Below are positions 16,835 to 56,518 of a DNA stretch of 64,000 nucleotides, one piece after another. The DNA comes from Bolinopsis microptera. Its lineage: Eukaryota > Ctenophora > Tentaculata > Lobata > Bolinopsidae. Under the pieces are notes generated by a model that saw only the letters and a program-made list of their open reading frames with translations, was not told the DNA's origin and ran no database searches. Location of the stretch: assembly GCF_026151205.1 (NCBI RefSeq), contig NC_087077.1, positions 20,085,975-20,149,974 of the forward strand. Direction: 5' to 3'. Positions within the stretch are counted from its first letter, which is position 1. Every line of letters starts with the position of its first letter. Made by a program: the position numbers and the translations under genes.

Positions 16835-17085
16835 CGACGGTTAAGGTAGTGTGTACCATACTTTCTTCGCCCGAGACTTTGCTGCAATGTGCAGCTCCTC
16901 ATTTAACCCTCACACCCGATTTCTCGAGTATTCGGCTGAGTAGACCGGGGGGCTGCATAGACCACTCACGATCCTTAGCTGAATGTCAACGACACTCACC
17001 CCACGACCAGGCAGGCAGTGGGATTTGAACCTGCAACCTCACGATTGCAAAGCTGGCTAACCAACTGCGCTACCTTGACGTACAC
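16835..17085 (-). mobile_element. tRNA-derived SINE
   Basis: On the minus strand the head contains GGTAGCGCAGTTGGTTAG (RNA polymerase III A box) and GGTTCAAATCC (B box) with tRNA spacing (~17021-17080). A non-tRNA body follows, rich in CCCCCCGGTCTACTCAGCC. It lies in a gap of Gag-derived copy B. The left end is approximate and I could not assign a clean target duplication. Confidence 0.75.
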
Positions 17086-17092
17086 ACTATTG

Positions 17093-17214
17093 TTGTATAA
17101 TAAAACTAAAGTACAAACCTAGATCACGAAGCCAAGATTGGAACACACTATTGTTATTGTATAATAAAACTAAAGTACAAACCTAGATCACGAAGCCAAG
17201 ATTGGAACTGCTCG
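17093..17214 (-). repeat. ~60-bp tandem duplication across the exon-1 splice donor of copy B
   Basis: The stretch from CACACTATTGTT through GATCACGAAGCCAAGATTGG occurs twice in a row. It includes the donor-side edge of the first coding block of Gag-derived copy B, so two donor sites now stand in tandem. Confidence 0.8.
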
Positions 17215-17322
17215 AAAGAAGCCCGCTTCCGCAATTCCGGTACAATTCCATCTCCGTCTTGTAGTTTGAACTGTTCTTCTAGTTCTGGAGTATCTTCTGG
17301 GAATACCTCCTCCGTTGCCATG

Positions 17323-21097: not shown

Positions 21098-22928
21098 ATG
21101 TCTGAGAGTGTTCTCTCTGACGATGACGTCATCATAGACCATGACCCCCAGGAGCACCCCCCTGTGTTAAGTAACAAGAACCCTTACTTACTCTCCACTG
21201 TTGTGTCTTACGGTGAGGGCTATATTATATCGTTATTGTAATCTCTTAGAGTTGCACTACTAGTCCGGCTATATTATATCGTTATTGTAATCTCTTAGAG
21301 GGGGGCTACTAGTCCGGCTATATTATATCGTTATTGTAATCTCTTAGAGGGGGGCTACTAGTCCGGCTATATTATATCGTTATTGTAATCTCTTAGAGTT
21401 GCACTACTAGTCCGGCTATATCATATCGTTATTGTAATCTCTTAGAGTTGCAAACATAACTTCTTATTTCTAGGCTCAGTTAGGATTAAAGTTCATTAAA
21501 TTATAAACTGCTGTAAAGATTTCCACAAGTTGTACTAACCTGTAAGGTGACCAGGTAACCAGGTAACCAGGTAACCAGGTAACCAGGTAACCAGGTAACC
21601 AGGTAACCAGGTAACCAGGTAACCAGGTAACCAGGTAACCAGGTAACCAGGTAACCAGGTAACCAGGTAACCAGGTAACCAGGTAACCAGGTAACCAGGT
21701 AACCAGGTAACCAGGTAACCAGGTAACCAGGTAACTAACCTGATTTTTCAGTTTGGTCGGTGTTTGAAACACACGGTTACGTTATCCTTATCGGAGCTGT
21801 TGTAACTTATTATGTGTATCAGAAACTAGTCGAATACCTCGAACAGAAGGTCCAGAGCAAGAGAGATGGTGTCCAATCTAACTTAAGTAAGTGTACACCT
21901 TCTCAAAGTCCAATGTGTGCTTCAGTTTCAGTTACATCAAAATAATGAATATTAGAGCGAATTCTCGTATCCTAGATTGTAACCTGACTATAATAATAAC
22001 AATGTATAGGCCCGGAAGAGCAGATGAATAGGTTAGAAGCTATGAGGAGAGCTCGTGAGAAGTTACAAGCTGAGGTGGACGCAGCTGCTGCTATAGAGGC
22101 TGAGAAGATTAGAGAGGTATATTTAGTTAAACACTTTTACTTTTTATATTATTTACTAAGCTGAGGTGGACGCAGCTGCTGCTATAGAGGCTGAGAAGAT
22201 TAGAGAGGTATATTTAGTTAAACACTTTTACTTTTTATATTATTTACTAAGCTGAGGTGGACGCAGCTGCTGCTATAGAGGCTGAGAAGATTAGAGAGGT
22301 ATATTTAGTTAAACACTTTTACTTTTTATAATAACTTACTAAGATAGATAAACTACTTTTTATATTATTTACTAAGTTAAACTTTTAACGATGTTAACTA
22401 AGTTAAATAAACTACTTTTTAAAAATAGTTAACAACAGCACTAACTGATCTCCTTCAGCGAGAAGAGCAACAGAGGCAGGATAAGATAGAGGACTGGGAG
22501 AGACACAAGAGAGGAGGCGGGTACAGGAGTAAACTTAGTAATGAACCTGCTAAAAAGAAGTCGCTCAAACTGGACAGTGCTAATCCTCTTATGGGTCATG
22601 GAACTAGTGGTGGTAAGTTATAGTGGGGGGGGGGGGGGGGGCTAGTGGTGGTAAGTTATAGTGGGGGGGGGGGGGGGGGCTAGTGGTAGTAAGTTATAGT
22701 GGGGGGGGGGGGGGGGGACTAGTGGTGGTAATGGTCGGGGCTTTTGGAGCTAAGGAGGGGGGAGAGGGGGTTCCTTCCTCAGTAGTTCACTTCTCTTCTA
22801 TAGTTACATTGCCCCTACTTCCCTGACAATACTATCCAGTCTAACCAGTAACTGCCCCCTCTCCAGGTGGATTCCGTCCCTCCAGACCCAACTTGAGTCG
22901 TGGTGGTGGTGGTGGTGGGTGAGGTTAG
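21098..22928 (+). CDS. SELENOS: Selenoprotein S (VIMP), selenocysteine at the penultimate position
   Basis: Five exons: 21098-21212, 21752-21886, 22010-22116, 22459-22612 and 22867-22928, all phases consistent, total 190 residues (human 189). After a short acidic lumenal part, GYVILIGAVVTYYVYQKL (~46-63) is the membrane helix. A charged coiled coil follows (MNRLEAMRRAREKLQAEVDA ... REEQQRQDKIEDWERHK), then a basic Gly-rich tail (NPLMGHGTSGG...SRGGGGGG). The tail ends GGG-TGA-GGT-TAG: the UGA at 22920-22922 is residue 189, exactly where vertebrate SELENOS has GGUG. A SECIS hairpin lies 130 nt downstream. The family acts with the p97/Derlin complex in ER-associated degradation. The start codon follows CCTGCTAG by 4 nt. 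Two exon ends are tandemly duplicated into the introns. Confidence 0.93.
21213..21450 (+). repeat. ~52-bp minisatellite in SELENOS intron 1
   Basis: Five units sharing GGCTATATTATATCGTTATT and GTAATCTCTTAGAG, differing by GGGGGCTACTAG versus TTGCACTACTAG. The array starts just after the exon 1 donor. Confidence 0.9.
21548..21735 (+). repeat. 8-bp array CCAGGTAA, ~23 copies, before SELENOS exon 2
   Basis: Every unit contains CAG|GTAA, a consensus 5' splice site. The array stops 16 nt before the exon 2 acceptor. The same octamer array recurs at 23475-23595. Confidence 0.95.
22069..22335 (+). repeat. SELENOS: 91-bp triplication of the SELENOS exon 3 end plus donor
   Basis: The last 48 bases of exon 3 (from GCTGAGGTGGACGCAGC), the donor AGAGAG|GTATAT and the first ~43 intron bases are repeated at 22069, 22160 and 22251, virtually identical. 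Two extra copies of the donor therefore lie in intron 3. Confidence 0.93.
22600..22731 (+). repeat. SELENOS: ~39-bp triplication of the SELENOS exon 4 end plus donor, with poly-G
   Basis: CTAGTGGTGGTAAGTTATAG followed by 16-18 G occurs three times. The first copy is the genuine exon 4 end, with donor GGTG|GTAAGT. Confidence 0.92.
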
Positions 22929-23049
22929 TGGACCTCTGTTATCTAGACACACATTCTAGTCGTCCTGCACTGACCTCCTCTCCTCCTCTTCTCTCACACT
23001 AGAGAACTAGTGTACAGACAAGATGAAACTGGTGGAGACTGGAGATCTG

Positions 23050-23112
23050 TGTAAATATATGACGTTCACAGCTTAAATCTAATACAGATGGTTGTGGACT
23101 GATGAAGACTGG
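23050..23112 (+). promoter_or_regulatory. SELENOS: SECIS element of SELENOS, form-2-like
   Basis: ATGA (23059-23062) and TGAT (23100-23103) form the UGAN/NGAN quartet. Between them GTTCACAGC (23064-23072) pairs with GTTGTGGAC (23091-23099): nine pairs including two G-U. The unpaired AA at 23075-23076 lies 11 nt above the quartet stem base. ATCT/AGAT (23077-23080 with 23086-23089) forms the extra mini-stem typical of form 2. All required parts are present by eye; folding energy was not computed. Confidence 0.88.
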
Positions 23113-23399
23113 GATTGTGTCTTGAGTGTCTTATTTACTGTTACTTTCTGCATGAAATAGCCAATTTGAAGCCCTTTTTAGAACTTTCGATTTGAAATAT
23201 TCGCTGGTCAAATTTTAATCAAATTAGCAATTTAACAGAATATTGACTTAAACAATAAACATGGACAAATTAAGTGCAGCATACGCTTTACGAAATACTG
23301 CATTGATTGTTCTATGAAACATTCAGTGCTTAGTCGATGTAAGTTTTAAAACTTTTTACTAAAATTGATAGTTTTTACTTCTGTTGCTCTGTTGAAACA

Positions 23400-23620
23400 G
23401 AATAATAAATAGTATTTATATGGGATATTACTTCTGTTGAAACAGAATAATAAATAGTATTTATATGGGATATTACCAGGTTAACCAGGTAACCAGGTAA
23501 CCAGGTAACCAGGTAACCAGGTAACCAGGTAACCAGGTAACCAGGTAACCAGGTAACCAGGTAACCAGGTAACCAGGTAACCAGGTAACCAGGTAAATAG
23601 TATTTATATGGGATATTACT
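23400..23620 (+). repeat. AACCAGGT octamer array between copies of a 23-bp sequence
   Basis: About 15 CCAGGTAA units at 23475-23595, flanked on both sides by copies of AATAGTATTTATATGGGATA (23405, 23453 and 23596). The rest of the SELENOS-PICK1 spacer (23113-23878) shows no gene. Confidence 0.9.
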
Positions 23621-23889
23621 TAATTTCAGTTAATTTGTCCAGAATGTGTTCTTATTAAAATTTCAATGTGTAAATACTCAACTGCTGTCTTGCATACATC
23701 GTTTCGTATCATTGTTTGATCCAAATATTTATTAATTTTCATATCAGATCATGGTTACTGTGAAACTGAATGAATCTATTGAAATCTATTGCAAAATTCT
23801 TCAATATTAGAGAATAACAAAAGAACAACCCTATTATTAATCTCAATCTAAGGTAGTAACTATATCTACATTATCTAGGCAGCAGTGAA

Positions 23890-26800
23890 ATGTACCCAAT
23901 GGTACCAGGCAGTACTGTTACACTGGAGAGAGGAAAAGACGGAATGGTGGGGCTCACTATCGGGGGCGGGGCACCTTACTGTCCTTCTCTTTATGTAGTC
24001 CAGGTAATTTAGCAACATTAGTTAAACTAATGTGTACTTATAATTTCTTGCTGATAATCAGAGTAACTCTGACAAGTGACTAGAAGAAAATAACGTTATT
24101 ACCAACTTCCGAACAAAACTATTATTCTCAAAAAAACGCCAACTATTCATTCACACTCATCTGTTAAATGAAACACTGTGGATATTTTTATAAACACCAC
24201 ACTCCCCCATGTTATTATAAACACCACACTCAGCTCCCCCAGATATTATAAACACCACACTCCCCAGGTATTATAAACACCACACTCCCCCAGGTATCAT
24301 AAACACCACACTCCCCCAGGTATCATAAACACCACACTCCCCCAGGTATTATAAACACCACACTCCCTCAGGTATTATAAACACCACACTCCCCCAGGTA
24401 TTATAAACCCCAGGTATTATAAACACCACATTCCCCCAGGTATTATAAACACCACACTCCCCCAGGTATTATAAACACCACACTCCCCCAAGTATAATAA
24501 ACACCACGCTCCCCAAGGTATCATAAACACCACACTCCCCCAGGTATTATAAACACCACACTCCCTCAGGTATTATAAACACCACACTCCCCCAGGTATT
24601 ATAAACACCACACTCCCCCAGGTATTATAAACACCACACTCCCCCAGGTATTATAAACACCACGCTCCCCCAGGTATTATAAACACCACACTCCCCCAGG
24701 TATTATAAACACCACAATCCCCCAGGTATCATAAACACCACACTCCCCAGGTATTATAAACACCACACTCCCCCAGGTATCATAAACACCACACTCCCCC
24801 AGGTATCATAAACACCACACTCCCCCAGGTATTATAAACACCACACTCCCCCAGGTATTATAAACACCACACTCCCCCAGGTATTATAAACACCACACTC
24901 CCCCAGGTATTATAAACACCACACTCCCCCAGGTAGTATAAACACCACACTCCCTCAGGTATTATAAACACCACACTCCCCCAGGTATTATAAACACCAC
25001 ACTCCCCCAGGTATTATAAACACCACACTCCCCCAGGTATTATAAACACCACACTCCCCCAGGTATTATAAACACCACACTCCCCCAGGTATTATAAACA
25101 CCACACTCCCCCAGGTATTATAAACACCACGCTCCCCCAGGTATTATAAACACCACACTCCCCCAGGTATTATAAACACCACACTCCCCCAGGTATTATA
25201 AACACCACACTCCCCCAGGTATTATAAACACCACACTGCCCCCAGGTATTATAAACACCACGCTCCCCCAGGTATTATAAACACCACACTCCCTCAGGTA
25301 TTATAAACACCACACTCCCCCAGGTATTATAAACACCACACTCCCCCAGGTATTATAAACACCACACTCCCCCAGGTATTATAAACACCACGCTCCCCCA
25401 GGTATTATAAACACCACACTCCCTCAGGTATTATAAACACCACACTCCCCCAGGTATTATAAACACCACACTCCCCCAGGTATTATAAACACCACACTCC
25501 CCCAGGTATTATAAACACCACATTCCCCCAGGTATTATAAACACCACATTCCCCCAGGTATTATAAACCCCAGGTATTATAATCACCACACTCTCCCAGG
25601 TATTATAAACACCACACTCCCCCAGGTATTATAAACACCACACTCCCCCAGGTATTATAAACACCACACTCCCCCAGGTATTATAAACACCACACTCCCC
25701 CAGGTATTATAAACACCACACTCCCCCAGGTATTATAAACACCATACTCCCACAGGTATTATAAACACCATACTCCCACAGGTATTATAAACACCACACT
25801 CCCCAGGTATTATAAACACCACACTCCCCCAGGTATTATAAACACCACACTCCCCCAGGTATTATAAACACCATACTCCCACAGGTATTATAAACACCAT
25901 ACTCCCCCAGGTATTATAAACACCACACTCCCCCAGGTATTATAAACACCACACTCCCCCAGGTATTATAAACACCACAATCCCCCAGGTATTATAAACA
26001 CCACACTCCCCAGGTATTCGAGAACACCCCCGCCTGGAAAGAGGGAACATTAAAAGCTGGAGATGAGCTGATGGCTGTTAACACGAGAAGTCTCAAGGGG
26101 ATGACGAAAGTGCAGGCTGCCAAGTTTATCCAGCGTATTGACGTTAGTTGAGTATTTCTGTAAAACTCTTCTTCCTCCTTGTTAATGATGTTTATAATCT
26201 TTACATCTTTATTATCTTTCTTTTTTTTCTTTAATAGTTTAATCTACAGACCGGCTAACGTGAACTAGCTTAGTGGATAAATCTGCCGTTTTCTGATAAA
26301 ATCCGAAGTTTTCAAACAATTTAGTCACATTTTTGGCCCTGCTGGGAATATCACAGGTACTAATGAGGAGAAAGCGAGGATTATTAAGGAGTACTTTGAA
26401 GCTGAGTTCAACGACGCTGATGAGCCTACCCTTCCTGCCTTCCTTGACCCCCCATCTAGCCTTAACAGTCCCATCACCGTTGCAGAGATAGAGAGAGCCA
26501 TCAGTAAACTCAAGTCTGGTAAAGCAGTGGGTATTGATAACGTTCCTGGTGAGGTCATGAAAGCCCTGAACAACCCCCTCCTTCATGAAGAGCTAGCTAA
26601 AGTGTTCAACGAGTCTTTCGAGAAAAACATTCACATTGAAGCAATAGGAGCAGGCATCCTCACACCACTGGCTAAGCCTGGTAAAACTCGTGGCCCAGTT
26701 AAGTCGATACGACCATTGACCCTGCTGAATGTTTCTAGAAAGATCCTGTCACTGATAGTGCTAAACAGAATAGAGAGAGCTGTGGACAACTTCACGGGAC

Positions 26801-29800
26801 CGTTCCAAGCTGCCTACAAAGCTGGCAGGAGCTGTGCCGACCTAGTTTGGGCACAGAGCATGCTCATATCTGTAGTAATGAAGAAGGAGTTTGAATGGAA
26901 CAAAGTGAGTATCGACATGTCAGCTGCCTTCAATACCATCCGCAGAGGTACAACAATCAGACTACTAGAAGCTGCAGGATGCTCCAGAGACGACCTGAGG
27001 CTTGTACAATACCTCATGGCTAACACCACTCTAGTAGTTAGAGTGTGTTCTACTGACTCAGAGATGTTCTCTTTCAACATAGGAGCCTCCCAAGGAGACA
27101 GCACAGCTGGTAAATTGTTTACCCTCAATCTAGCTGGAGCTGTAGTGCACATAAGAGCAGTCCTCCCCTCAAGACCCAACCCTCCGATAGCCGATTACCA
27201 CATGCCTCTTGAGTCCGGCTATTCAGACGATGTAGAGGAGATTGGTGAAGATATGGAGGAGTTACAGGATATCTTTCAGATCTCCAAGAATATTCTCAGT
27301 GAATGGAGTCTCTTTGTCAATGACACAAAGACAAAGTTTACCAGAGTGTATTTAGAAGAAGTTGGTGCCTGTGACGAGTGGGGTAATGAACTAAGAGGAA
27401 AAGAGGAGTGGAGAAACGAGACGCTTCTTGGTACTAAGCTTGGATCAGAGCAGGATGTTACTAATAGAATAAATAAAGCTAACTCTGCCTTCTGGTCATT
27501 TGACAAGCTGTGGTGCCAGGGATCAGAGAGGAGTCAGATAACTGAGAAGAGAAAGATCAAACTCTACGACTCACTAGTAGTATCAGTGCTCCTGTACAAC
27601 TGCTGCTGCTGGGCCGTACCTCAGCATGTTCTAGAGTCTGTAGATGTTGTTCAGAGGAAGCACCTCAAGCGCATCCTACACATCTATTGGCCTAGCTCAA
27701 TATCTAACAAGGCCCTCTACGCTCGTACCCAGACCAGGCCCCTTTCCGAGAGAGTGGAAAAGGCACGGTGGACAATGCTAGGTCATGTTCTACGCAGCGA
27801 CAACGACACGCCTGCCTACCAGTCTCTGTTATTTGCTACACTAGGATGTCAAACACTAAAGGGACGAGTGGGTAGACATAGGACTAATTTGTATGATATT
27901 ATTGTGAAAAAGGACCTATTTAAGAGACAAATTTATTTGAAAAATGAAGATGATTTTACCAACTTAGTGAACTTAGCAAGAGATAGAGTAGGATGGAGGA
28001 GTTTATTTACTTTGAGACATATTGAACGAATGAGTCTTCGTAAGCGTAAATAGGCCAGCACTTTGCTGAGCCTCTTTAGGTGCTCTTTTGTTTATAGATG
28101 TTATTATATTTGGCCAATTACGGCATTTAAGGGGTCTCATTTGTCAGAAAATGGAGAAATAGTCTGGAAATGACAACTTGTGACATGTAGAAATTGTCCA
28201 CAGTCCAGTGACATTGATATCTTACAATCTGTGAAACTTGAGCTGGAACATGATATCTGATAATCAGTACAGTTCCTATTATTCAGACAGACAAAACTCG
28301 GTTTTGTATTTGCCTTGTGACGTCAATTGTGACGTCAATCGCATGCTTGAGGAGGCGGGTAACTGTTAAATGCTTATTTTTCAGGGTGACGTAACATTTA
28401 CGTACGCTAAATTAACAGTGGATACAAACCACTTCAAGGAGGCAAAGGGTCTTGATATGGGTGAGAATAAACATTTCGTATTACTCATAATATGTAGTAT
28501 GTTTGTGTAATAATAATATGTTTTAAACAACCCTCTCCGGATAATATCTTGTTTCGGAAACTCGAACTACTGCACTCAGTATCTTAACTCGAACTACTTC
28601 ACTCAGTATCTTAACTCGAACTACTGCACTCAGTATCTTAACTCGAACTACTGCACTCAGTATCTTAACTCGAACTACTTCATTCAGTATCTTAACTCGA
28701 ACTACTGCACTCAGTATCTTAACTCGAACTACTGCACTCAGTATCTTAACTAGAACTACTGCACTCAGTATCTTAACTTGAACTACTTCACTCAGTATCT
28801 TAACTCGAACTACTGCACTCAGTATCTTAACTCGAACTACTGCACTCAGTATCTTAACTCGAACTACTGCACTCAGTATCTTAACTAGAACTACTGCACT
28901 CAGTATCTTAACTCGAACTACTTCATTCAGTATCTTAACTCGAACTACTGCACTCAGTATCTTAACTCGAACTACTGCACTCAGTATCTTAACTAGAACT
29001 ACTGCACTCAGTATCTTAACTCGAACTACAGGGTGGCCCATAAGTGACTACCCACACGCAACCTCTTAATAACTCACGTAATTCGTCTCCAAATTGCACC
29101 ACAATTTCAGAGATTATAGATATGGGTCAAACTTAGATTTCCTGAAAGTTTCGTAAGCCACGCCCAATTACAGTGGGCGTGGCGTGACACTCCCTCTTTT
29201 TCACTATTGTCTTCATAAAATGAGAACGCTTTAAGCTAAGAACTCACAATTTTTTGCACACATTTGGCTTGATAATTGAAAACTTTTCCAAAAGTTTCAA
29301 GTTCATTGGTAAAAATATGGCTGAGTTATGACCATTTTAAAATCCATCGGATATGTGATCCGAGCACTCAGTCAGTGATATTTGCACTCAATTAGTGATC
29401 TCGTCACCCAATCTGATCAAGAGTAAGGCGTGTATTAATGAGGTTCATTAGGCTTTGATTGGATACCGATGATGTCTTTGCTAGAAAGGAAAACACAAAT
29501 TTTTAGGATAAATCAATAAATGAAATCAACTAATAAAAATTCCCACACAAAAACAATTCAATAATTTCAATTAAGATGTTCAAAGAATGTGTTGGCGAAA
29601 TCTATCCTCGATTGGAAATCACGGTCCAAAAGTTTGTGTTTCTTTGTGATTCGGTAGGCCCGGTTAGAAAGGTCTTGCTTTAGGATTCGCTGAAGGGTTG
29701 TTCTGCTGAGGTCTAAGGCAGGAGCTCGTTTCCGGGTGCCAATCTTAGGTGTGTCCAACACGTCACCAACAACCATCGTGATGTTTTCTACAGTCCTCGC

Positions 29801-32800
29801 AGTTCGTCTTCTGCCGACTCTTCGCCGATCGTGTGCAGAAAACGTAAACTTGATCTTGTGATGAATGTCAAAGCAGCTTTTCCGGCAAGGGGGTGGTCGG
29901 TTGAATTTCATCTGAAATTGTCGTTTAATCTGAGGGTAGAACTCCCCATTTTCTTTCTTCAGGTAGACAAACAATCGTTGTTCTGCAGTAAAGGGAGGAT
30001 AGTGAACCATTTTTATTGATTGTAAGGAACCTGTGACTAGCAGGGCTAACAAGCCCTGAAATGGTGACACCACCATAAATTCGTGTGATAGCGTTTTAGG
30101 TGCTGTCAGCTGTATAGGCCGGCCCATAAGCAGGCTGCAACCAATCAAGCGGTGCATGTGAGCCAAACAGGCCATTAACCAAGTGACCGATCACGTATCC
30201 GATGAGTTTTGAAATGGTCATAACTTAGCCATATTTTAACCAATGAACCAAGGTTTTCAATTATCAAGCCAAATGTGTGCGAAAAATTTTGAGTTCTTAG
30301 CTTAAAGCGTTCTCATTTTATGAAGACAATAGTGAAAAAGAGGGAGTGTCACGCCACGCCCACTGTAATTGGGCGTGGCTTACGAAACTTTCAGGAAATC
30401 TAAGTTTGACCCATATCTATAATCTCTGAAATTTTGGTGCAATTTGGAGACGAATTACGTGAGTTATTAAGAGGTTGCTTGTGGGTAGTCACTTATGGGC
30501 CACCACTTCAAGGAGGCAAAGGGTCTTGATATGGGTGAGAATAAACATTTCGTATTACTCATAATATGTAGTATGTTTGTGTAATAATAATATGTTTTAA
30601 ACAACCCCCTCCAGATAATATCTTGTTTCTGAAACTCGAACTACTGCACTCAGTATCTTAACTCGAACTACTGCACTCAGTATCTTAACTCGAACTACTG
30701 CACTCAGTATCTTAACTCGAACTACTGCACTCAGTATCTTAACTCGAACTACTTCACTCAGTATCTTAACTCGAACTACTGCACTCAGTATCTTAACTCG
30801 AACTACTGCACTCAGTATCTTAACTAGAACTACTGCACTCAGTATCTTAACTTGAACTACTTCACTCAGTATCTTAACTCGAACTACTGCACTCAGTATC
30901 TTAACTCGAACTACTGCACTCAGTATCTTAACTCGAACTACTGCACTCAGTATCTTAACTAGAACTACTGCACTCAGTATCTTAACTCGAACTACTTCAT
31001 TCAGTATCTTAACTCGAACTACTGCACTCAGTATCTTAACTCGAACTACTGCACTCAGTATCTTAACTAGAACTACTGCACTCAGTATCTTAACTCGAAC
31101 TACTTCACTCAGTATCTTAACACCCTATTTTTACTTTACTTTAAAACCTGCAAACCATGTTCTCCGGACACAATGCGAGTTTGAAACATTATACCCTGAT
31201 TCCTGCAATGCAGCCTACAGTTCGAGCATGGTGGTTGAGTTTGAACGGAGCTGTAAATTAGCTTATATTATCATGCAGTGCTTAGTCTACTGGTTCTTAC
31301 GTTTCTTATCATGTTGAAATCTAGGATTAATGCTCTTAGCGGGCGCTTTTCTTAAGTTCAGTGGGATTATTTGAGCTACATATAAAGGGATATAAACAAT
31401 CAGGTTCAGATCTAATCTAACAAGTGTCACATCAGCTATTTTCCACCCGATGTGAATATTGTTTAGAGATACCAGTGAAATTTAATCAAATCACTGAACC
31501 GTCTGATTACTCCTCATCTTGAATCTTTTGTTGTCTGTTAACCACGGCCACTGTACCACCAACCATACCACCAACCGTACCACCAACCATACCACCAATA
31601 TTCAATACTCGTACTGATGTAACCATGGCAACCATATTCAATACTCGTACTGATCTTATACCACCTAAACGCAGTAATATCTGATCATATTTCGTTCTGA
31701 AAATCTGATAATTATTTCAGTAATGAAGAAAGTAAAACACAAGTGTATTGAAAGAATGTCTAGTGGTACGGCTGATAAACTGGGCCTAACACGGGCTGTG
31801 CTGTGCAACGGTAAGTTTTAATGTCTAGTGTAAATTTGTTTATTAAAGCTACTTGTAAGTATATAAAGCCTACAGATAAGGAGTGTTACATAATAATATG
31901 ATACCAGTAGTATTGATAATAATTGCGAATTTCGGCTTTTGTTTTGTCACGTTCCTTTCTTATCATTGACACTTTCCTTTCAGATGACCTCCTATATAGA
32001 AGTACTGATTAACATTCCTTTCAGATGACCTCGCTAAGAAATTAGAAGAATTCGAGAGAAATGCTAAGTTTTACAAGGGTGGGTTAAAACATTTAAAGAT
32101 TCTTAAATAATATCAAGTCACTCAACGAATCCAATAAATCTACAAGATTAAATGAATTTTTATGCAAGAAACGGTTTTAACAGACAACTACATTAATAAA
32201 TGAATTAGTTGATTTGTCTGCTCAATATTTACACTACCATTTGACAGAACTAATGATACACATGACCGACTATATGAAACTATTTGATTTTGACGAGGAA
32301 CATGCAGACCTCTGCATGTAACCATGGTAACATGCAGACCTCTGCAGTCCTTACAAAGGTACTAAACATACCATTTAAAATGACAATATAAGGTCAATGA
32401 CCTTATTAGGAGGTCAATGACCTTATTAGGAGGTCAATGACCTTATTAGGAGGTCAATGACCTTATATGGTCAATGATTTTATCTGAGAAACTGAACTTT
32501 CCCTTCTTCTTAGAGATGATTGTCAGGTCCCATTATCTTCTCCTGGATTTCAATGCAGTGTGTGGAGTTTACAAAGGTAACTTTATACTTATTTCAACAG
32601 AATATTATACTTTACACACACTTTAACCATCGGCTCATGGAATTCCTATTTTAAGATAATATGTGGAGTATGATAAAATGTTATCATTGTCAAATTCAGG
32701 AAAACGTCATGGGTATTCCTAAAATTTGTAGAATTCGGTTTACATCCAAAAATGTTCTTTAATCTTTATCATGCTTTTTTCTTAAATTCTTTATCACAGT

Positions 32801-35800
32801 ATCGCACCGAATCACACCTGCACTCTAATATTTATAACTTATTACATAATTTATGCACTGTATTACTTACAATAATCACATAATTTATGCTACCGGAATA
32901 CCCAAATTATCACGTATTGACTCAGCAAGACAAATGTTGATGCTATGCTATAGTGATAAGAACCATTACGCTCAACTATGCTAGTCTATTAAATCTAGTC
33001 TATTTATAGACTAGATTTAATAGACTAGCATGTCTTTATAAAGACATAAACATTACACTCACCTAGTTCATGTAAACTACCTCCTGTAAGGGGTTGTGCC
33101 CCACCCCCCTCTAACCATCATGTAAACTACCTCCTACGTAAGGGGTTGTGCCCCACCCCCTCTAACCATCATGTAAACTACCTCCTGTAAGGGGTTGTAC
33201 CCCACCCCCTCTAACCATCATGTAAACTACCTCCTGTAAGGGGTTGTACCCCACCCCCCACTAACCATCCTGTAAACTACCTCCTGTAAGGGGTTGTACC
33301 CCACCCCCCTCTAACCATCATGTAAACTACCTCCTGTAAGGGGTTGTGCCCCACCCCCTCTAACCCCCCCTCTAACCCCCCCTCTAACCCCCCCTCTAAC
33401 CCCCCCTCTAACCCCCCTCTAACCCCCCCCTCTAACCCCCCCTCTAACCCCCCCTCTAACCCCCCCTCTAACCCCCCTCTAACCCCCCTCTAACCCCACC
33501 TCTAACCCCCCTCTCTAACCCCCCCTCTAACCCCCCTCTAACCCCCCTCTCTAACCCCCCCTCTAACCCCCCCTCTAACCCCCCCTCTAACCCCCCTCTA
33601 ACCCCCCTCTAACCCCCCTCTCTAACCCCCCCTCTAACCCCCCTCTAACCCCCCTCTAACCCCCCTCTCTCCAGGAATGGGTGACCTGTTCTCACAAATA
33701 GCAGTACGTGAGAAGTGCGCTGCTAACCCCCCCTCTAACCCCCCCTCTAACCCCCCTCTAACCCCCCTCTAACCCCCCTCTAACCCCACCTCTAACCCCC
33801 CTCTCTAACCCCCCCTCTAACCCCCCCTCTAACCCCCCCCCTCTAACCCCCCCTCTAACCCCCCTCTAACCCCCCTCTAACCCCCCCTCTAACCCCCCCT
33901 CTAACCCCCCTCTAACCCCCCCTCTAACCCCCCCTCTAACCCCCCTCTAACCCCCCCTCTAACCCCCCTCTAACCCCCCCTCTAACCCCCCCTCTAACCC
34001 CCCCTCTAACCCCCCCTCTAACCCCCCCACTAACCCCCCCCCCTCTAACCCCCCTCTAACCCCCCTCTCTCCAGGAATGGGTGACCTGTTCTCACAGATA
34101 GCAGTACGTGAGAAGTGCGCTGCTAACCCCCCCTCTAACCCCCCCTCTAACCCCCCTCTAACCCCCCTCTAACCCCCCTCTAACCCCACCTCTAACCCCC
34201 CTCTCTAACCCCCCCTCTAACCCCCCCTCTAACCCCCCCCTCTAACCCCCCTCTAACCCCCCCTCTAACCCCCCCTCTAACCCCCCTCTAACCCCCCCTC
34301 TAACCCCCCCTCTAACCCCCCTCTAACCCCCCCTCTAACCCCCCTCTAACCCCCCCTCTAACCCCCCCTCTAACCCCCCCACTAACCCCCCCCCCCCTCT
34401 AACCCCCCCTCTAACCCCCCTCTAACCCCCCCTCTAACCCCCCCTCTAACCCCCCTCTAACCCCCCCTCTAACCCCCCTCTAACCCCCCCTCTAACCCCC
34501 TCTCTAACCCCCCCTCTAACCCCCCCTCTAACCCCCCTCTAACCCCCCTCTAACCCCCCCTCTAACCCCCCCTCTAACCCCCCCTCTAACCCCCCTCTAA
34601 CCCCCCCTCTAACCCCCCCTCTAACCCCCCTCTAACCCCCCCTCTAACCCCCCCCCTCTAACCCCCCCTCTAACCCCCCCTCTAACCCCCCCTCTAACCC
34701 CCCCTCTAACCCCCCCTCTAACCCCCCTCTAACCCCCCTCTAACCCCCCTCTAACCCCACCTCTAACCCCCCTCTCTAACCCCCCCTCTAACCCCCCCTC
34801 TAACCCCCCCCTCTAACCCCCCCTCTAACCCCCCTCTAACCCCCCTCTAACCCCCCCTCTAACCCCCCCTCTAACCCCCCTCTAACCCCCCCTCTAACCC
34901 CCTCTCTAACCCCCCCTCTAACCCCCCCTCTAACCCCCCTCTAACCCCCCTCTAACCCCCCCTCTAACCCCCCCTCTAACCCCCCCTCTAACCCCCCTCT
35001 AACCCCCCCTCTAACCCCCCCTCTAACCCCCCTCTAACCCCCCCTCTAACCCCCCCCCTCTAACCCCCCCCCTCTAACCCCCCCTCTAACCCCCCCTCTA
35101 ACCCCCCCTCTAACCCCCCCTCTAACCCCCCTCTAACCCCCCTCTAACCCCCCTCTAACCCCACCTCTAACCCCCCTCTCTAACCCCCCCTCTAACCCCC
35201 CCTCTAACCCCCCCCCTCTAACCCCCCCTCTAACCCCCCTCTAACCCCCCTCTAACCCCCCCTCTAACCCCCCCTCTAACCCCCCCTCTAACCCCCCTCT
35301 AACCCCCCCTCTAACCCCCCCCTCTAACCCCCCTCTAACCCCCCCTCTAACCCCCCTCTAACCCCCCCTCTAACCCCCCCTCTAACCCCCCCACTAACCC
35401 CCCCCCCCTCTAACCCCCCCCCTCTAACCCCCCTCTCTCCAGGAATGGGTGACCTGTTCTCACAGATTGCAGTACGTGAGAAGTGTGCTGCTAACGAAGC
35501 GTTTACTATTTTCGCAGACACACACAGAAACTACCACAAGGCTGGCTCTGAGTTCCAGAAGAAAGCTGCACCTGTACGTACATTGTACATTGTTCATTGT
35601 ACATTATACATTATACATTATACATTGTTCAGTAAACTTTAGTGTGTTCCAAAGGGGGTTTCGATTGCTTCTGGCAGTTTTGATGGTTCTCAAGGATAGT
35701 TCTTCAACCAAAAACAAAGTTTTAATAATTTTAAAAAAAAATTGTATGACCTGAAATAATTATCCAGAAAACAGCAGAATAGTCAGATCTGCACAAAAAG

Positions 35801-36864
35801 CACACTAACCAGCTCCCTCCCGTCAGATAATGAACAAGTTAGGAACTTATCTTCACAAAGCAGTACCTGACATGAGACTGACTATTAAGAAGTACGCAAA
35901 CGCAAAGTTTGAGTATCTTGCTTACTGTCTCAAGATAAAGGAGATGGATGATGAGGAGTACACTTTCAACGTTAGTATTATTTTGACAGTGAAATTCCTC
36001 AGGCGCCTCAAAAGAGGTTTTAAATAGTATAGTTTAGAACAGAAAAGTACCCTGATTTCCAGAATCATCATTATGTAAATTTGCTGACTTTGTTAAAAAA
36101 CTGTTTATTCCAGTCGTTAGACGACCCTCTGTAAGGGGTTGTACCCCACCCCCCTCTAACCCCCCTTTAACCCCCCAGTCATTAGACGACCCGCTACCCC
36201 GTGTAGAGGAAGGTAACTACGAGTACAACCCCCTGTAAACTACCCCCTGTAAGGGGTTGTACCCCACCCCCCTCTAACCCCCCTTTAACCCCCCAGTCAT
36301 TAGACGACCCGCTACCCCGTGTAGAGGAAGGTAACTACGAGTACAACCCCCTGTAAACTACCCCCTGTAAGGGGTTGTACCCCACCCCCCTCTAACCCCC
36401 CTTTAACCCCCCAGTCATTAGACGACCCGCTACCCCGTGTAGAGGAAGGTAACTACGAGTACAGAGTTGTACTCCGGTGTCGCGCGCAAGCTCGCGCGTA
36501 CTTCCTCCAACTCCGCAGCGACGTCAGAGTCAAACTTCAGCTCCTTAACTCAAAGCACGGTTAGTAACACTATCTCCCACGGTACAAACATAGTTTGTTA
36601 GATTTTACAATTAGGCATCTTAATGTACTATTTAATCGCTCCTATTTTGTTGAATGTTAATAAACTGGTAGTGTTACCATGGTTACTATGTATAGTTACC
36701 ATGGTTACTATACACTATCTCCCGCAGTACAAGACCTGACAGTGCAGCTAGAACAGTGGACTAAAGTACAACTAGCTTATTACGAGGAGGCTGCTGCTAT
36801 CTCCGACAAGGCTAACGTCTTCCCAATAGACATAGACCTGAGCACTGTAGTGGACGCTCAATAA
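23890..36864 (+). CDS. PICK1: PICK1: PDZ and BAR domain trafficking adaptor
   Basis: Ten exons: 23890-24003, 26014-26142, 28385-28460, 31721-31810, 32025-32078, 32514-32576, 35443-35573, 35827-35970, 36415-36559 and 36728-36864. Phases agree throughout, giving 360 residues (human 415; the acidic C-terminal tail and extreme N-terminus are absent here). The PDZ domain (exons 1-3) has the ligand loop GLTIGGGAPYCP and VVQVFENTPAWKEGTLKAGD. KKVKHKCIERMSSGTADKLG links it to the BAR domain, where DMRLTIKKYANAKFEYLAYC and EMDDEEY match the family closely. PICK1 binds C-terminal tails of receptors and kinase C and curves membranes. The start MYPMVPGS follows the acceptor TTATCTAG by 11 nt. A further N-terminal exon is possible but not seen. 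Introns hold a LINE, a mariner-like element and very large minisatellites. Confidence 0.95.
24187..26013 (+). repeat. 26-bp minisatellite, ~70 copies, seeded on the PICK1 exon 2 acceptor
   Basis: Unit CACCACACTCCCCCAG|GTATTATAAA with scattered variants. The genuine exon 2 boundary is CACCACACTCCCCAG|GTATTCGAG, so every unit reproduces the 3' splice site and the first four exon bases. It fills nearly all of intron 1. Confidence 0.95.
26281..28053 (+). mobile_element. 5'-truncated LINE reverse transcriptase in PICK1 intron 2
   Basis: An open frame without stops runs from at least 26341 to 28053 (>570 codons). RT blocks are SKLKSGKAVGIDNVPGEVMK, PLTLLNVSRKIL, KVSIDMSAAFNTI, GASQGDSTAGKL and GYSDDVEEI, then the thumb/tail (YDSLVVSVLLYNCCCWAVPQ; KARWTMLGHVLR). 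The active site reads YSDD rather than YADD. The endonuclease half is missing. It is inserted in the same orientation as PICK1. The clade is uncertain (RTE-like tail). Confidence 0.85.
28428..29035 (+). repeat. 27-bp minisatellite plus PICK1 exon 3 end, copy 1
   Basis: From CCACTTCAAGGAGGCAAAGG (exon 3) through the donor and ~90 bp of intron, then ~17 units of a 27-mer containing ACTACTGCACTCAGTATC (from 28558). The same arrangement recurs at 30502-31122. Confidence 0.93.
29036..30505 (-). mobile_element. Deletion derivative of a mariner-like DNA transposon with long inverted repeats
   Basis: Terminal inverted repeats of ~330 bp begin (A)GGGTGGCCCATAAGTGAC on the left and mirror on the right (~30170-30505), with few mismatches. 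The minus-strand frame 29567-30175 contains MVHYPPFTAEQRLFVYLKK, GRRRTARTVENI and LSRTTLQRILKQDLSNRAYR, the N-terminal DNA-binding region of a mariner-type transposase. It ends before any DDE catalytic part, so the copy is non-autonomous. The left end abuts the 27-bp array; the right end has lost a few terminal bases and joins PICK1 exon 3 sequence at a CCAC microhomology. Confidence 0.85.
30502..31122 (+). repeat. 27-bp minisatellite plus PICK1 exon 3 end, copy 2
   Basis: Near-identical to 28428-29035: the last 32 bases of exon 3, its donor GG|GTGAGAAT, ~90 bp of intron, then ~18 units. A second, unused-looking exon 3 end with donor therefore follows the transposon. Confidence 0.93.
31550..31670 (+). 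repeat. Short ACCAACCATACC tandem and a duplicated ATTCAATACTCGTACTGAT
   Basis: Four ~13-bp units (31555-31600), then two copies of ATTCAATACTCGTACTGAT at 31599 and ~31638 around TAACCATGGCAACC. Confidence 0.85.
31975..32030 (+). repeat. PICK1: Duplicated acceptor and start of PICK1 exon 5
   Basis: CCTTTCAGATGACCTC occurs at ~31977 and again at ~32018. The second leads into the open exon; the first runs into a stop soon after. Confidence 0.85.
32388..32470 (+). repeat. 20-bp tandem with nuclear-receptor IR-1 look-alike
   Basis: AGGTCAATGACCTTATTAGG repeated about four times. AGGTCA-A-TGACCT is an inverted repeat with one-base spacer, the classical IR-1 arrangement. Confidence 0.9.
32978..33031. 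repeat. Perfect 26-bp palindrome with 2-nt loop
   Basis: Arms 32978-33003 and 33006-33031 (ATGCTAGTCTATTAAATCTA...) are exact reverse complements separated by TT, in PICK1 intron 6. Confidence 0.95.
33062..33360 (+). repeat. ~58-bp minisatellite, six units
   Basis: Units share TGTAAACTACCTCCTGTAAG, GGGGTTGTGCCCCACC and CTCTAACCATCA. A related unit, CTGTAAGGGGTTGTACCCCA, surrounds the exon 9 copies at 36130-36400. Confidence 0.93.
33355..35440 (+). repeat. (CCCCCCTCTAA)n array with two embedded PICK1 exon 7 starts
   Basis: About 2.1 kb of 10-12 bp units. At ~33669-33725 and ~34070-34126 it contains CTCTCTCCAG|GAATGGGTGACCTG and the next ~40 exon bases, each then returning to the array at GCTGCTAAC. 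The genuine exon begins at 35443 directly after the array. Confidence 0.95.
36108..36470 (+). repeat. PICK1: ~117-bp repeats of the PICK1 exon 9 acceptor and exon start
   Basis: CCCCCCAG|TCATTAGACGACCCGCTACC and the following ~30 exon bases appear at 36175, 36293 and 36413; a shorter variant (CAG|TCGTTAGACGACCCTCTG) is at 36112. Only the last continues into the full exon. The others return to the array after GAGTACAA. Confidence 0.93.
36560..36727 (+). repeat. PICK1 last intron with a duplicated pre-acceptor and X-box repeats
   Basis: ACACTATCTCCCACGGTACA near 36567 is a diverged copy of ACACTATCTCCCGCAG|TACA at 36712-36731. Two GTTACCATGGTTAC motifs lie at 36673 and 36695. Confidence 0.75.
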
Positions 36865-38286
36865 ACATCCTGACTATAGCCAACTGTTTGTTAGACTTAT
36901 TGTAAGAAGTACGGGGTCATGTTTATAAGATACGAATTAAAATATAGGTCATGTTTATAGAAATGATTCTGTTTACAGAAGACGACTCACGAGAAATTTC
37001 TTGTACTGTGAGAGGTGAGCGTTATTTGTAACGTGACGTCACACCACGTGATATGACGTCACACCACGTGACATGTCGTCACACCACGTGACATGACGTC
37101 ACACCACGTGATATGACGTCACACCACGTGCTATGACGTCACACCACATGTAGTTTAAGTAGAATAATTAGCGACGTTTGTTGATATCTTAGGCATGGTT
37201 TGTTTATAATTTAGATTTAGTTGTTGATTTATTAAAGTGATATTGCATGCCTTGGCGCATGGGAATTTAATCTTGAATTTAATCTAGATTCTAGACAGTA
37301 GATTAGTTATATTATTGCATTGTTATTTAATTTTTAATTTTCTCTTAAGAAATTTATCGATAAGTTGTGATTCTATACCCATTTCTGAGTTAAATTAATT
37401 AAATCTTAAATTATCTCTGACAATTTGAATTTTGAATTTTACTTTGTTTTGAGGGCCGGTCCCATTTTAATCAATATGATTACTAAATGAGTTTGGATCT
37501 TGACAGTGAATTTATTTTAAATCCTTAATTTATCTTTAATTTATTGGTTTGAATGCTCGATTAGCGTAATAATGTGATTAATTGCTATTTATCTATCTAT
37601 TTAACGTAATAAAAATTTGCATTTTAAAGTTGAAAGTTCCTTTGCTGGCTAAAGAGAAAACTTGTAAAGATATATTGATATTACCTGCTAATTCTTTTTG
37701 CGTAGCTATTTAATTAACTTCTGACTGATTAAGTCATACGAGAACTGTGAATGTACCAGTAGATAACACCATGGTAAACATATAGTAACGTGATGCCCAT
37801 ATAAGGTCAACACACGAGTTTGAGTTGCAGAATAATATTCAGTACTATTATCATTATATATAGTGGATTTCACTGTTTAATTTGTTGTTTACACTCTATC
37901 TGTTTGAAATGAACTGCAGTGTTTTAATCCTCCGTTTTATTCGAAATTGAACAAAAAACCAAGTAAGACACTCTGTTACAGAAACTAAAAGACTGATTTA
38001 ATGACAAGATAATATTAATAATTAGCAAGTACTACCTAATTAATTATGTTTATCATTAGCAAGTACTGCCTATATACTACTATACTATATAGCTATATAG
38101 ATTACTTGAAATTATCTCTACATCAATACAAGGAAGGAAGGAAGATGAGACGACTAGTAGATAACAGCATGGTAAACATATAGTAACGTGATGCCCATAT
38201 AAGGTAAAAATACGAGTTTGAGATAACAGGGCCTGTAGATAACAGGGTCTGTAGATAACAGGGCCTGTATATAACAGGGTCTGTAG
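36865..38286. other. Spacer between PICK1 and the propeller gene, with motif repeats
   Basis: A possible short exon lies at ~36980-37013 (acceptor TTTACAG, donor AG|GTGAGC), too short to assign. Bases 37030-37150 are a tandem of CACGTGATATGACGTCACAC-like units with E-box and CRE cores. About 70 bp at 37757-37827 recurs at 38152-38222 and includes ACGTGATGCCCATATAAGG. Bases 38222-38286 are ~16-bp units ATAACAGGG(C/T)CTGTAG leading straight into the next start codon. Confidence 0.6.
37030..37150 (+). repeat. ~21-bp array combining TGACGTCA and CACGTG
   Basis: Six units of ATGACGTCACACCACGTGA with single-base variants, in the PICK1 downstream spacer. Confidence 0.93.
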
Positions 38287-41027
38287 ATGAGAACTCAAGA
38301 AGAAGTAGAGAAAGCAGCAAGAGATGAGATCTCCAGAAAGAGAGCTGAGCTACTGAGAATACAACAGGAACTTAATAGGAAACTAAAACATGCTGACAGA
38401 CGGAAAAACAAACGCAAGAAAGTTAACAAAGAGGAAAATAAGGAGGAAAATAAGGAGGAGTACAGTGAACAGAAGGTTCGTGATTTTCAGAAGCAGTGTA
38501 ATTTACCAGTTATTATTTATTATTGTTGGTTAACAGTTTCTATTCATTCTTAGCTATTTGTTTAGAGCAATTTTACGGTCGAAAGTTTGAGTCTGTTTAA
38601 TTGATACGATAATGAGGAACAGAGAAACAAAGATCCTAGGTAGTATAGACGTGGTTAAATGTTTGATTGTTTAGTTGTATTGTTTAGTTGTATTGGTCCC
38701 GTCTTTATATGATTTGTTTCCGTTGTACTGTAAGACCCTATTTGACATATTTCTAATTTCAGCTGAAGCCGCTCCCGCATTACAAACTACCCTTCCTCTT
38801 GAAACCTCCTACAAAGATGGTCTGTAACCATCAGTACAAACTGAACAACAATAATCAAACCGGGCAGAATAAAGATAATACTGTATTAGTGTCTGCTAAG
38901 TTTATCTACAGAGGACACGTGACGTCACCCCCACACGTGACGTCACCCCCACACGTGACGTCATCAGAACACGTGACGTCATCAGAACACGTGACGTCAC
39001 CCCCACACGTGACGTCATCAGAACACGTGACGTCACCTCCACAATATGAACCAGTACACACACCTTCACACATCTTGATACTTACTGAGTGTAACATTAA
39101 CCTTGTTGAGATCAACACGTGGCGTGTAAACACGTGGGATATCTCCCCCGCTCTAAGCTCATATACAGATTATATCTTGTTGTTTGGAGACCTCTTACTT
39201 GGTATTGATAAAAACAGTAGTAAGATAGTAAATATAAAGACATCTAACCTAGTGTACGAGTGTAAGAAGATAGAAACATATTGCTACACATCAGACAGGA
39301 TATTCCTCTCCATTACATCAGACACCCCCGCTCCCTTATATGGGCATCACGTGACTACTCCTCATCACGTGACTACTCCTCATCACGTGACTACTCCTCA
39401 TCACGTGACTACTCCTCATCACGTGACTACTCCTCATCACGTGACTACTCCTCATCACGTGACTACTCCTCATCACGTGACTACTCCTCATCACGTGACT
39501 ACTCCTCATCACGTGACTACTCCTCATCACGTGACTACTCCTCATCACGTGACTACTCCTCATCACGTGACTACTCCTCATCACGTGACTACTCCTCATC
39601 ACGTGACTACCCCTCATCACGTGACTACTCCTCATCACGTGACTACTCCTCATCACGTGACTACTCCTCATCACGTGACTACTCCTCATCACGTGACTAC
39701 TCCTCATCACGTGACTACTCCTCATCACGTGACTACTCCTCATCACGTGACTACTCCTCATCACGTGACTACTCCTCATCACGTGACTACTCCTCATCAC
39801 GTGACTACTCCTCATCACGTGACTACTCCTCATCACGTGACTACTCCTCATCACGTGACTACTCCTCATCACGTGACTACTCCTCATCACGTGACTACTC
39901 CTCATCACGTGACTACTCCTCATCACGTGACTACTCCTCATCACGTGACTACTCCTCATCACGTGACTACTCCTCATCACGTGACTACTCCTCATCACGT
40001 GACTACTCCTCATCACGTGACTACTCCTCATCACGTGACTACTCCTCATCACGTGACTACTCCTCATCACGTGACTACTCCTCATCACGTGACTACTCCT
40101 CATCACGTGACTACTCCTCATCACGTGACTACTCCTCATCACGTGACTACTCCTCATCACGTGACTACTCCTCATCACGTGACTACTCCTCATCACGTGA
40201 CTACTCCTCATCACGTGACTACTCCTCATCACGTGACTACTCCTCATCACGTGACTACTCCTCATCACGTGACTACTCCTCATCACGTGACTACTCCTCA
40301 TCACGTGACTACTCCTCATCACGTGACTACTCCTCATCACGTGACTACCCCTCATCACGTGACTACTCCTCATCACGTGACTACTCCTCATCACGTGACT
40401 ACTCCTCATCACGTGACTACTCCTCATCACGTGACTACTCCTCATCACGTGACTACTCCTCCCACCTTCCTTATCCAGACCCTGGTGTATGATCCTCTCT
40501 CTGGCACCCTCACTAAACTCAGCCAGTTCCCCACCCCTCACTTGATAGTATCTCTCAGACACATGTCTGATAGACTAGTAGGTACTTCAGCTGGTAATGT
40601 GTATATCTGGACACTGCAGGGTGAGTTGTGTGGTGAGTTAGCGTTACCAGGGTTACCAGGGTTACCAGGGTTACCAGGATCAGAAGGTTTGGTGTGTAGA
40701 GCAGCTAGGTTCTATAACTCTCATACCTTCCTGGCTATTAGCTGCGGGAGTGTGTTATATTCGCTAGTTCTCAACCCTAGCATGGACGATCAGAGGCTGG
40801 TTAGCGAGGTTGAAACACAAGGAAATGTTTTTATGTGCGGTTTTTATTCTGTTTTCTCTGAAAAAGGGAGTTTGTGTATGTATAACATGGTGACAGAGAG
40901 TTTGTCTGCTAAATTGGAGACCCCTGAAATGAAGGTTCTAGATGTTTGTACGGATTATCCCATATTCCTATTCCATTCTGGGGACGCTGTGTTGTTGTGT
41001 CATTTTAACATTCCAGATACACAGTGA
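38287..41027 (+). CDS. Coiled-coil plus propeller-like protein, unknown; contains an expanded 18-bp repeat
   Basis: Exon 1 (38287-38475) encodes a charged coiled coil (MRTQEEVEKAARDEISRKRA ... RKNKRKK), then donor AAG|GTTCG. Exon 2 starts at 38763 after TTTCAG (LKPLPHYKLPFLLKPPTKM) and stays open to 41027. Segments such as ILILTECNINLVEINTWRV, YILLFGDLLLGI, HMSDRLVGTSAGNVYIWTL and DYPIFLFHSGDAVLLCHF look like strands of a WD40-type propeller. The open frame runs through a ~1.1 kb array reading HHVTTP about 62 times. Because an 18-bp stop-free unit stays open in several frames, this is not proof of translation. An acceptor CCTTCCTTATCCAG at the array's right edge would allow it to be intronic. 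The protein family is not recognised. Confidence 0.65.
38915..39045 (+). repeat. CACGTGACGTCA array inside coding sequence
   Basis: Seven copies of CACGTGACGTCA, an E-box overlapping a CRE, separated by CCCCCA or TCAGAA, in the frame of the propeller-like protein (HVTSPP / HVTSSE). Confidence 0.92.
39331..40462 (+). repeat. 18-bp E-box array, ~62 copies
   Basis: Unit CATCACGTGACTACTCCT, nearly invariant. It starts directly from the dispersed motif CCCTTATATGGGCATCACGTG at 39334-39354, as if that motif seeded the array. CACGTG recurs every 18 bp. Confidence 0.95.
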
Positions 41028-48545: not shown

Positions 48546-48698
48546 TGACACGTGATGCCCATATAAGGAGAACACGTGATCTGTCATGATGAACACGTGA
48601 TGCCCATATAAGGAGAACGCGTGATCTGTCATCATGATGTCACGTGATGCCCATATAAGGAGAACGCGTGATCTGTCATCATGAACACGTGATGCTCC
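48546..48698 (+). repeat. ~50-bp tandem of the E-box/CArG motif after the ATG16L1 stop
   Basis: Three full units and a partial one. Each has CACGTGATGCCCATATAAGG, then AGAAC(A/G)CGTGAT and CTGTCAT. They begin inside or next to the stop codon and would lie in the 3'UTR. Confidence 0.92.
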
Positions 48699-55915: not shown

Positions 55916-56518
55916 CACCTCCAGAACCCACCCCAGTGCCGAGACCAGGCTCCCCAGCACATTACCCCTGGTATCTGCCCGCTCCCTTCTCGCTCTTCTC
56001 TCTAGGTTCCTATCTATCTGTGCTGCTATGTGTATCAGTCGGAGAGCTATAAACTGACACAGCAGCTCGTCCTCCTCTCGGTTTGTGGCCTCCTCTGGGT
56101 TCTAGGGAGTTAGAAAAGTGACAGTCTGAAACTACAAATAAACACGAGCCTCTCGGTTTGTGGCCTCCTCTGGGTTCTAGGGAGTTATAAAAGTGACAGT
56201 CAAATAAACACGAGCCTTCACTCGGCCGTTTTCACATGATGGATATTGATCACAATAGTCAAACACGAGGAAGTGTTTTATAACATTACTCAAGCACAAG
56301 GAAATGTTTTATAACATTATTTAAACGCATGGAAATGTTTTATTACAAAACTAAAACACAAGAAAATGCTTTATAACATTGCTAAAACACAAGGCAATAT
56401 TTTATAACATTACTCAAACACAAGGAAATGTTTTATAACTCACGTTTAAACTCAAAGCGCCGTTGATTGCTTGGAAAGCAGGAAAGTCTCCGTTACCATG
56501 GTTACCGTTATGTTCCAT
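55901..56518 (-). CDS. Two-exon, 91-residue BH3-like protein with hydrophobic C-terminus
   Basis: Exon 1 (56444-56518) encodes 25 residues (MEHNGNHGNGDFPAFQAING...) and ends in phase 0 at the strong donor AAC|GTGAGT. Exon 2 (55901-56101) starts at acceptor CTCCCTAG|AACCC and encodes NPEEATNREEDELLCQ, then FIALRLIHIAAQIDRNLERR and a hydrophobic end, NVLGSLVSALGWVLEVIFRY. The helix ALRLIHIAAQID has the spacing of a BH3 motif (compare ALRLACIGDEMD of BIK, recalled from memory), but the central Gly-Asp is Ala-Ala, which weakens the case. The C-terminal segment could anchor it to a membrane. The gene structure is well supported; the function is not. Confidence 0.5.
56077..56215 (-). repeat. Duplicated acceptor and start of exon 2 of the BH3-like gene
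   Basis: About 65 bp, from CTCGGTTTGTGGCCTCCTCT through CTAGGGAGTTA and AAGTGACAGTC, occur twice. The outer copy is a second 3' splice site with the first ~24 exon bases. Confidence 0.88.
56255..56445 (-). repeat. ~38-bp minisatellite in the intron of the BH3-like gene
   Basis: Five or six diverged units sharing AGGAAATGTTTTATAACATT and CTCAAACACA. The last ends at the exon 1 donor (TTTTATAACTCAC|GTTT on the + strand). Confidence 0.85.

Follow-up and report, generated by a model that had tools for sequence, protein, structure and literature searches.

The window, the whole stretch of 64,000 nucleotides that was analysed, contains SELENOS and PICK1 on the same strand, and gene models for both were built from the sequence; they splice into open frames and match Pfam families (Table 1). 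The SELENOS model consists of 190 codons, including the in-frame TGA, has four GT-AG introns and matches Pfam Selenoprotein_S. Its 3' end (22867-22928) carries the in-frame TGA followed by Gly and a stop, an ending that we take to match selenocysteine-containing SELENOS; no SECIS element for the gene was matched by Rfam at gathering thresholds. The PICK1 model comprises 360 amino acids and nine GT-AG introns, and its PDZ part matches PICK1 (PRKCA-binding protein) chains in the PDB; our impression is that the protein is presumably more diverged than would be expected for amphioxus. An uninterrupted reverse transcriptase frame (RVT_1) lies within PICK1 intron 2 (26281-28050).

Three further genes served as controls: an ATG16-like gene, whose N-terminal part matches Pfam ATG16 exactly at the cut-off, whose last exon matches WD40 and whose exons beyond the sixth donor were placed by eye, and two genes at 9.3-10.6 kb (minus strand) and 38.3-41.0 kb, modelled by eye from splice consensus and frame. 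The five models together hold 30 GT-AG introns, or 60 splice sites.

The window is represented by 84 tandem-repeat rows from TRF. One 8-bp unit, AGGTAACC, each copy of which contains AG|GT, has been amplified twice, to 23.9 copies in SELENOS intron 1 (21545-21735) and to 15.1 copies ahead of the PICK1 start codon (23475-23596). The motif CCCATATAAGG recurs in several introns and near genes, often adjoining CACGTG (44848-48695 and 37790-38200, by eye), and an 18-bp unit present 62 times (39345-40461) within the long open reading frame at 38757-41024 would encode a repeated peptide. At exon 6 of the ATG16-like gene (45341), an array or duplication begins 4-5 nt past the donor.

Table 1. Gene models and duplicated splice junctions, in window positions.
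Feature	Position	Strand	Basis
SELENOS coding span, 5 exons	21098..22928	+	open spliced frame, one in-frame TGA; Pfam PF06936, E 2.9e-23
SELENOS junctions	21213/21752/21887/22010/22117/22459/22613/22867	+	
PICK1 coding span, 10 coding exons	23890..36864	+	open spliced frame; Pfam Arfaptin, E 1.5e-55, and PDZ
91-bp unit x3.1 across SELENOS exon 3 donor (22117)	22063..22343	+	TRF
38-bp unit x3.3 across SELENOS exon 4 donor (22613), with G runs	22604..22731	+	TRF
26-bp array ending on PICK1 exon 2 acceptor (26014)	24188..26018	+	TRF, counts
PICK1 exon 3 donor (28461) within a duplicated 602-bp segment, copies 2074 bp apart	28428..31103	+	99% identity
PICK1 exon 5 acceptor (32025) in a 21-bp duplication, copies separated by a 20-bp filler	31971..32032	+	95% identity
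50-bp minisatellite in PICK1 intron 6, core recurring in exon 9 array	33068..33365	+	TRF
12-bp C-rich array with 165 CTAAC motifs and two captured PICK1 exon 7 starts	33354..35495	+	TRF
Array at PICK1 exon 9 acceptor (real site 36415): 118-bp unit x2.9 after a shortened first copy (36114)	36110..36463	+	
PICK1 exon 10 acceptor (36728); 145 bp upstream, a degraded duplicate	36567..36732	+	90% over 21 bp
Gag-like copy B, 64-bp tandem duplication across putative donor; single in copy A	17040..17260	-	

A second local copy is present at 8 of the 26 SELENOS and PICK1 splice sites, five of the eight being acceptors: the donors of SELENOS exons 3 and 4, the donor of PICK1 exon 3 and the acceptors of PICK1 exons 2, 5, 7, 9 and 10. 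These are all of the SELENOS and PICK1 junctions listed in the preliminary description of this DNA. In an ungapped comparison of 20 bases centred on the junction, with at least 17 matching within 3000 bp, 7/26 sites in the two genes have a second copy versus 0/34 in the three control genes, a figure that says little as duplicated sequence is scarce in the control spans (0.04, 0.001 and 0.06); the eighth, PICK1 exon 10, was found once off-centre matches were allowed. At the copied junctions the real site is the exon-proximal copy, and the coding frames are unbroken across all eight.

The preliminary description held that minisatellites grow out of the junctions. This fits four of the eight (SELENOS exons 3 and 4, PICK1 exons 2 and 9), where head-to-tail arrays contain both exon and intron bases (five exon bases at PICK1 exon 2), whereas the other four have a different anatomy, with spaced copies only at the acceptors of PICK1 exons 5, 7 and 10 and the donor of exon 3. 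The eight junction copies are several kinds of event rather than one. The original observation is partly confirmed and its interpretation partly supported.

The decoy sites were scored with weight matrices built from the donors and acceptors of the 30 introns; this training set is small and contains the real sites themselves. AG or GT is kept in most decoys across the copied junctions, with the PICK1 exon 10 decoy as the exception. At SELENOS exon 3 both decoy donors (22208 and 22299) score equal to the real donor, and read-through beyond the real donor runs into stops. At exon 4, where the donor array contains a G4 motif on the plus strand, one decoy (22651) equals the real donor and no other lies within 2 bits. 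At the exon 1 donor of SELENOS (21213), an array or duplication begins 4-5 nt beyond the donor.

The PICK1 exon 2 array presents 67 decoy AG|GTA sites in addition to the real one; most decoys have one C more than the real site, and only three score within 2 bits of it. The 26-bp unit matches the first five exon bases; similarity further into exon 2 is not significant (p 0.23), and an origin of the unit there was set aside on that ground. The two 602-bp copies at exon 3 flank an inverted-repeat transposon (about 29030-30504) whose terminal inverted repeats are 97.5% identical over 79 bp; within intron 3 the element is thus bracketed by duplicates of the exon 3 end together with a 27-bp array. 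The copied donor (30535) scores equal to the real one, and since 18 sites in intron 3, the real one included, lie within 2 bits, donor scores discriminate poorly there. The exon 5 copy lies 41 bp upstream of the acceptor and keeps its AG, but does not score within 2 bits.

Two copies of the PICK1 exon 7 start (33675 and 34075) are embedded in the C-rich array upstream of the real acceptor at 35443, and both score equal to it. AG is confined within this array to the two exon copies, with 11 AGs at or inside them. The copies rejoin the array at CTAAC, which is common to exon and array; the TAAC microhomology proposed earlier is borne out, the full shared stretch being one base longer. Compared by eye, the exon 7 start and its copies differ at three codons (CAG/CAA, ATT/ATA and TGT/TGC), none of which changes the encoded residue in the real frame. 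The 12-bp unit resembles a branch site (CTAAC) followed by a pyrimidine tract. CTAAC occurs upstream of 6/30 acceptors versus 1.5 in random intron windows, which were not cleared of arrays (p 0.003), and the looser branch pattern YTNAY is not enriched upstream of acceptors (20/30 versus 18.7). At the other end of exon 7 (35574), an array or duplication begins 4-5 nt past the donor.

The PICK1 exon 9 junction is chimeric. AG is present at each of its four acceptors; in score, the two 118-bp decoys equal the real site and the original first acceptor exceeds it (9.3 versus 6.9). Within the 118-bp unit, 46 bp match the intron 6 minisatellite at 97.8% (36234-36279 and 36352-36397). Downstream of the first acceptor (36114) come 14 exon bases, 47 bp and then a second acceptor with exon, and bases 2-34 of the 47 (33 bp) are identical to minisatellite positions 33284-33316. 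Because both the 118-bp unit and the insert in the first copy match the intron 6 minisatellite, a piece of that array seems to have been copied to exon 9 together with a duplicate of the exon 9 junction, and copying would have run from intron 6 to exon 9. The GTACA microhomology named earlier for exon 9 is, by eye, not common to the array sequence joined there. The exon 10 duplicates are 21 bp long with 124 bp between them; AG is gone from the decoy, and only the real site scores. No convincing source for the exon 5 and exon 10 fillers was found in the window.

The same pattern had been claimed for two further loci. The 64-bp duplication in Gag-like copy B is real, crosses a putative donor and is absent from copy A, the two minus-strand copies being about 81-83% identical in their three longest matches; on its sequence, the pair is a polarised case of duplication across what is a putative donor. 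At the BH3-like locus (56077-56215) the duplication is visible, but the gene itself is putative.

Whether junctions are favoured depends on the null model. Under a circular shift of the 26 positions across the SELENOS-PICK1 span, 7/26 real junctions lie in duplicated sequence versus 11.5 expected (44%), and three stricter settings give 3 to 5 observed versus 10.5 to 11.2; over all four spans, including the controls, the count is 7/60 versus 18.9. There is accordingly no junction excess against base coverage in the SELENOS-PICK1 span or in the four spans. Placement of full array footprints gives no excess either, with 4/18 TRF arrays versus 4.9 in the SELENOS-PICK1 span and 4/26 versus 8.1 with controls; adding three events by hand gives 7/21 versus 6.8 and 7/29 versus 10.1 respectively.

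These coverage and array-length nulls were run first and later judged too strict for the question of origin, because an array expands internally and contains a junction only if its founding unit did. We think that a null based on founding units is the right one for origin; it is also the one that favours the preliminary description more. It leaves out placements wholly in exons and takes event size as either copy length or period. The event list comprises 27 TRF arrays within the four gene spans, with overlapping rows merged by hand, and 10 of 32 duplication rows, the other 22 being parts of the same arrays or events or poly-C; the PICK1 exon 7 event was entered as a junction hit by hand.

In the SELENOS-PICK1 span 8/25 founding units hit junctions versus 1.6 expected by copy length (P 3e-5) and 3.3 by period (P 0.002), and with the three controls 8/37 versus 3.25 (P 0.008) and 6.5 (P 0.27). 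Leaving out exon 10 and the exon 3 duplication gives 6/23 versus 1.15 (P 0.0005) and 2.3 (P 0.007) in the span, and 6/35 versus 2.6 (P 0.035) and 5.3 (P 0.42) with controls. Without any two-copy events the counts are 4/18 versus 0.9 (P 0.009) in the span and 4/27 versus 1.95 (P 0.12) with controls. The copy-length count thus amounts to a post hoc excess of 2.5 to 5 times, and the P values are generous because the set was picked after being seen, in one window. An excess of founding units at junctions is possible. The assertion that chance placement would not favour junctions so strongly is not borne out by these counts: coverage and array nulls yield no excess, whereas founding units do, but post hoc and with P 0.12 once two-copy events are removed and controls included. 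In addition, the distance to an array edge is at most 6 nt at four junctions versus 1.24 expected; one of the four also belongs to the eight copied junctions.

Junction-spanning tandem repeats have been described in amphioxus as 'mirages'. In the available portions of the reports they involve Adh3, the globins BflGb6 and BflGb9, TnC and PGBD5 (PMC3087553, PMC3902484), with PGBD5 added and troponin C cited in PMC3902484, and published data suggest that regular splicing is undisturbed (PMC3087553, PMC3902484). The amphioxus units, 10 to about 160 bp long, likewise span exon-intron boundaries at donors and acceptors, many with AG/GT, and from sequence we read the present repeats as likely fresh instances of the phenomenon already named there. 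They differ in the far longer array (67 decoys), in the presence of one minisatellite fragment both within an intron and at a junction of the same gene, and in the two-copy cases with filler; moreover, the reported host group is the cephalochordates, whereas the present cases are known from the sequence of one window. In the papers searched, among which most subscription journals were not covered, no listed title or abstract opening names mirages outside cephalochordates; some of the listed papers, for example PMC2891723, PMC2812944 and PMC4974935, deal with intron changes associated with tandem duplication or repeats.

A review of how introns are gained through tandem duplication and through break repair (PMC3443670) allows two comparisons. 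Tandem genomic duplication of AGGT resembles the present case in its duplicated AG|GT units, which could be spliced out precisely, and differs in that existing introns are extended here and no new position is demonstrated. Staggered-break repair in Daphnia (PMC3443670) has in common with PICK1 exons 5, 9 and 10 an insert bordered by short direct repeats, but here the repeat holds an existing acceptor, and the intron end moves with no intron created.

The reading that we consider probable is that the repeats are mirages as in amphioxus, that is, local duplications that happened to span a splice junction in a minisatellite-rich region. They would be ordinary duplications requiring no junction-specific machinery, and would be tolerated since the copy next to the exon still supplies it with a working splice site, leaving the mRNA normal and the duplicate in the intron. 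A copy over an acceptor would lengthen the intron upstream of the real site, and a copy over a donor downstream of it, with the exon left whole. The routes would have varied: tandem duplication followed by slippage or unequal exchange at SELENOS exons 3 and 4 and PICK1 exon 2; end-joining or template switching with filler at PICK1 exons 5 and 10 and in the first step at exon 9; capture within an expanding C-rich array at exon 7; and segment duplication around a transposon at exon 3. Expansion of the C-rich arrays may have been aided by G4 structures on the complementary strand. Splicing would be normal and the copies neutral. The intact frames at all eight junctions, the involvement of both donors and acceptors with AG or GT kept in most decoys, as in amphioxus, the varied event types, the 33 bp of intron 6 minisatellite in the exon 9 array, the Gag-like pair with the duplication missing in the sister copy and the array coverage at junctions, not above expectation, all argue for this reading. 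Against neutrality stand the event-based excess (8/25 versus 1.6, P 3e-5), left unexplained by neutrality alone since a duplication anywhere in an intron would be just as silent, the four junctions by array edges and the fact that the real acceptors are the last of many AGs.

It is doubtful that splice junctions are true duplication hot spots in this lineage, with minisatellite fragments reaching them by templated insertion. On that account the intron 6 piece would have been pasted at exon 9 with a second acceptor, moving the intron end and leaving the protein unchanged. The specific proposal that junctions are mutational hot spots because C-rich pyrimidine tracts or branch sites, with G4 on the template, stall replication and seed duplications seems to us unlikely. 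The event-based excess and the preponderance of acceptors (5/8) would agree with it, as would a G4 motif at most 60 nt from 3/8 copied junctions versus 1/52 others, the motif at exons 7 and 9 being on the template, and the resemblance of the 12-bp unit to a branch site and pyrimidine tract, with CTAAC above its intronic frequency at acceptors. The same data weigh the other way in that there is no excess against coverage, none of the 34 control sites is copied (though those spans are repeat-poor), YTNAY is near its expectation and the signal, from a set chosen post hoc, is weak once two-copy events are omitted and controls included.

Selection for clusters of splice sites, for example for splicing tuning or dual use of AG|GT, is very unlikely to account for the repeats. 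The 67 exon 2 decoys have the AG|GT form of dual-specific sites, for which human UBC, in the available text of PMC10809524, is a precedent with tandem AG|GT; the UBC sites, however, delimit coding monomers and are used, whereas the decoys here are intronic candidate sites. The exon 10 decoy lacks AG, use of the SELENOS exon 3 decoys would meet stop codons, and AGGT occurs in 7/54 repeat units versus 3.9 expected (p 0.09), so that enrichment is not clear.

Long low-complexity arrays are difficult to assemble. An assembly error behind some of the copy numbers, or behind entire arrays, is nevertheless highly unlikely, even if one amphioxus mirage appears misassembled in a draft genome according to the available part of PMC3087553. 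Copies in this window vary by point changes and at their ends, and the short two-copy cases need no long array. R-loops over transcribed junctions, which the preliminary description suggested as a driver, are scarcely credible: the donor unit at SELENOS exon 4 is G-rich on the sense strand and nascent RNA would be G-rich over that array only, whereas the sense strand of the long PICK1 arrays is rich in C (GC skew -0.62 and -0.78), the less favourable orientation for R-loops, and at exons 7 and 9 the G4-forming strand is the template.

Repeats across junctions are relevant to the lengthening, shifting and origin of introns, and to the way in which the spliceosome chooses among near-identical sites; PICK1, in which 67 decoys precede one acceptor, offers a natural test of how an acceptor is chosen. 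Intron length with versus without junction repeats differs here at p 0.07. If junctions were indeed duplication hot spots fed by templated insertion, repeat turnover would be a continuing, splice-neutral route to longer introns and moved intron ends. Should the host be no cephalochordate, mirages would reach beyond the group of the published reports that were found.
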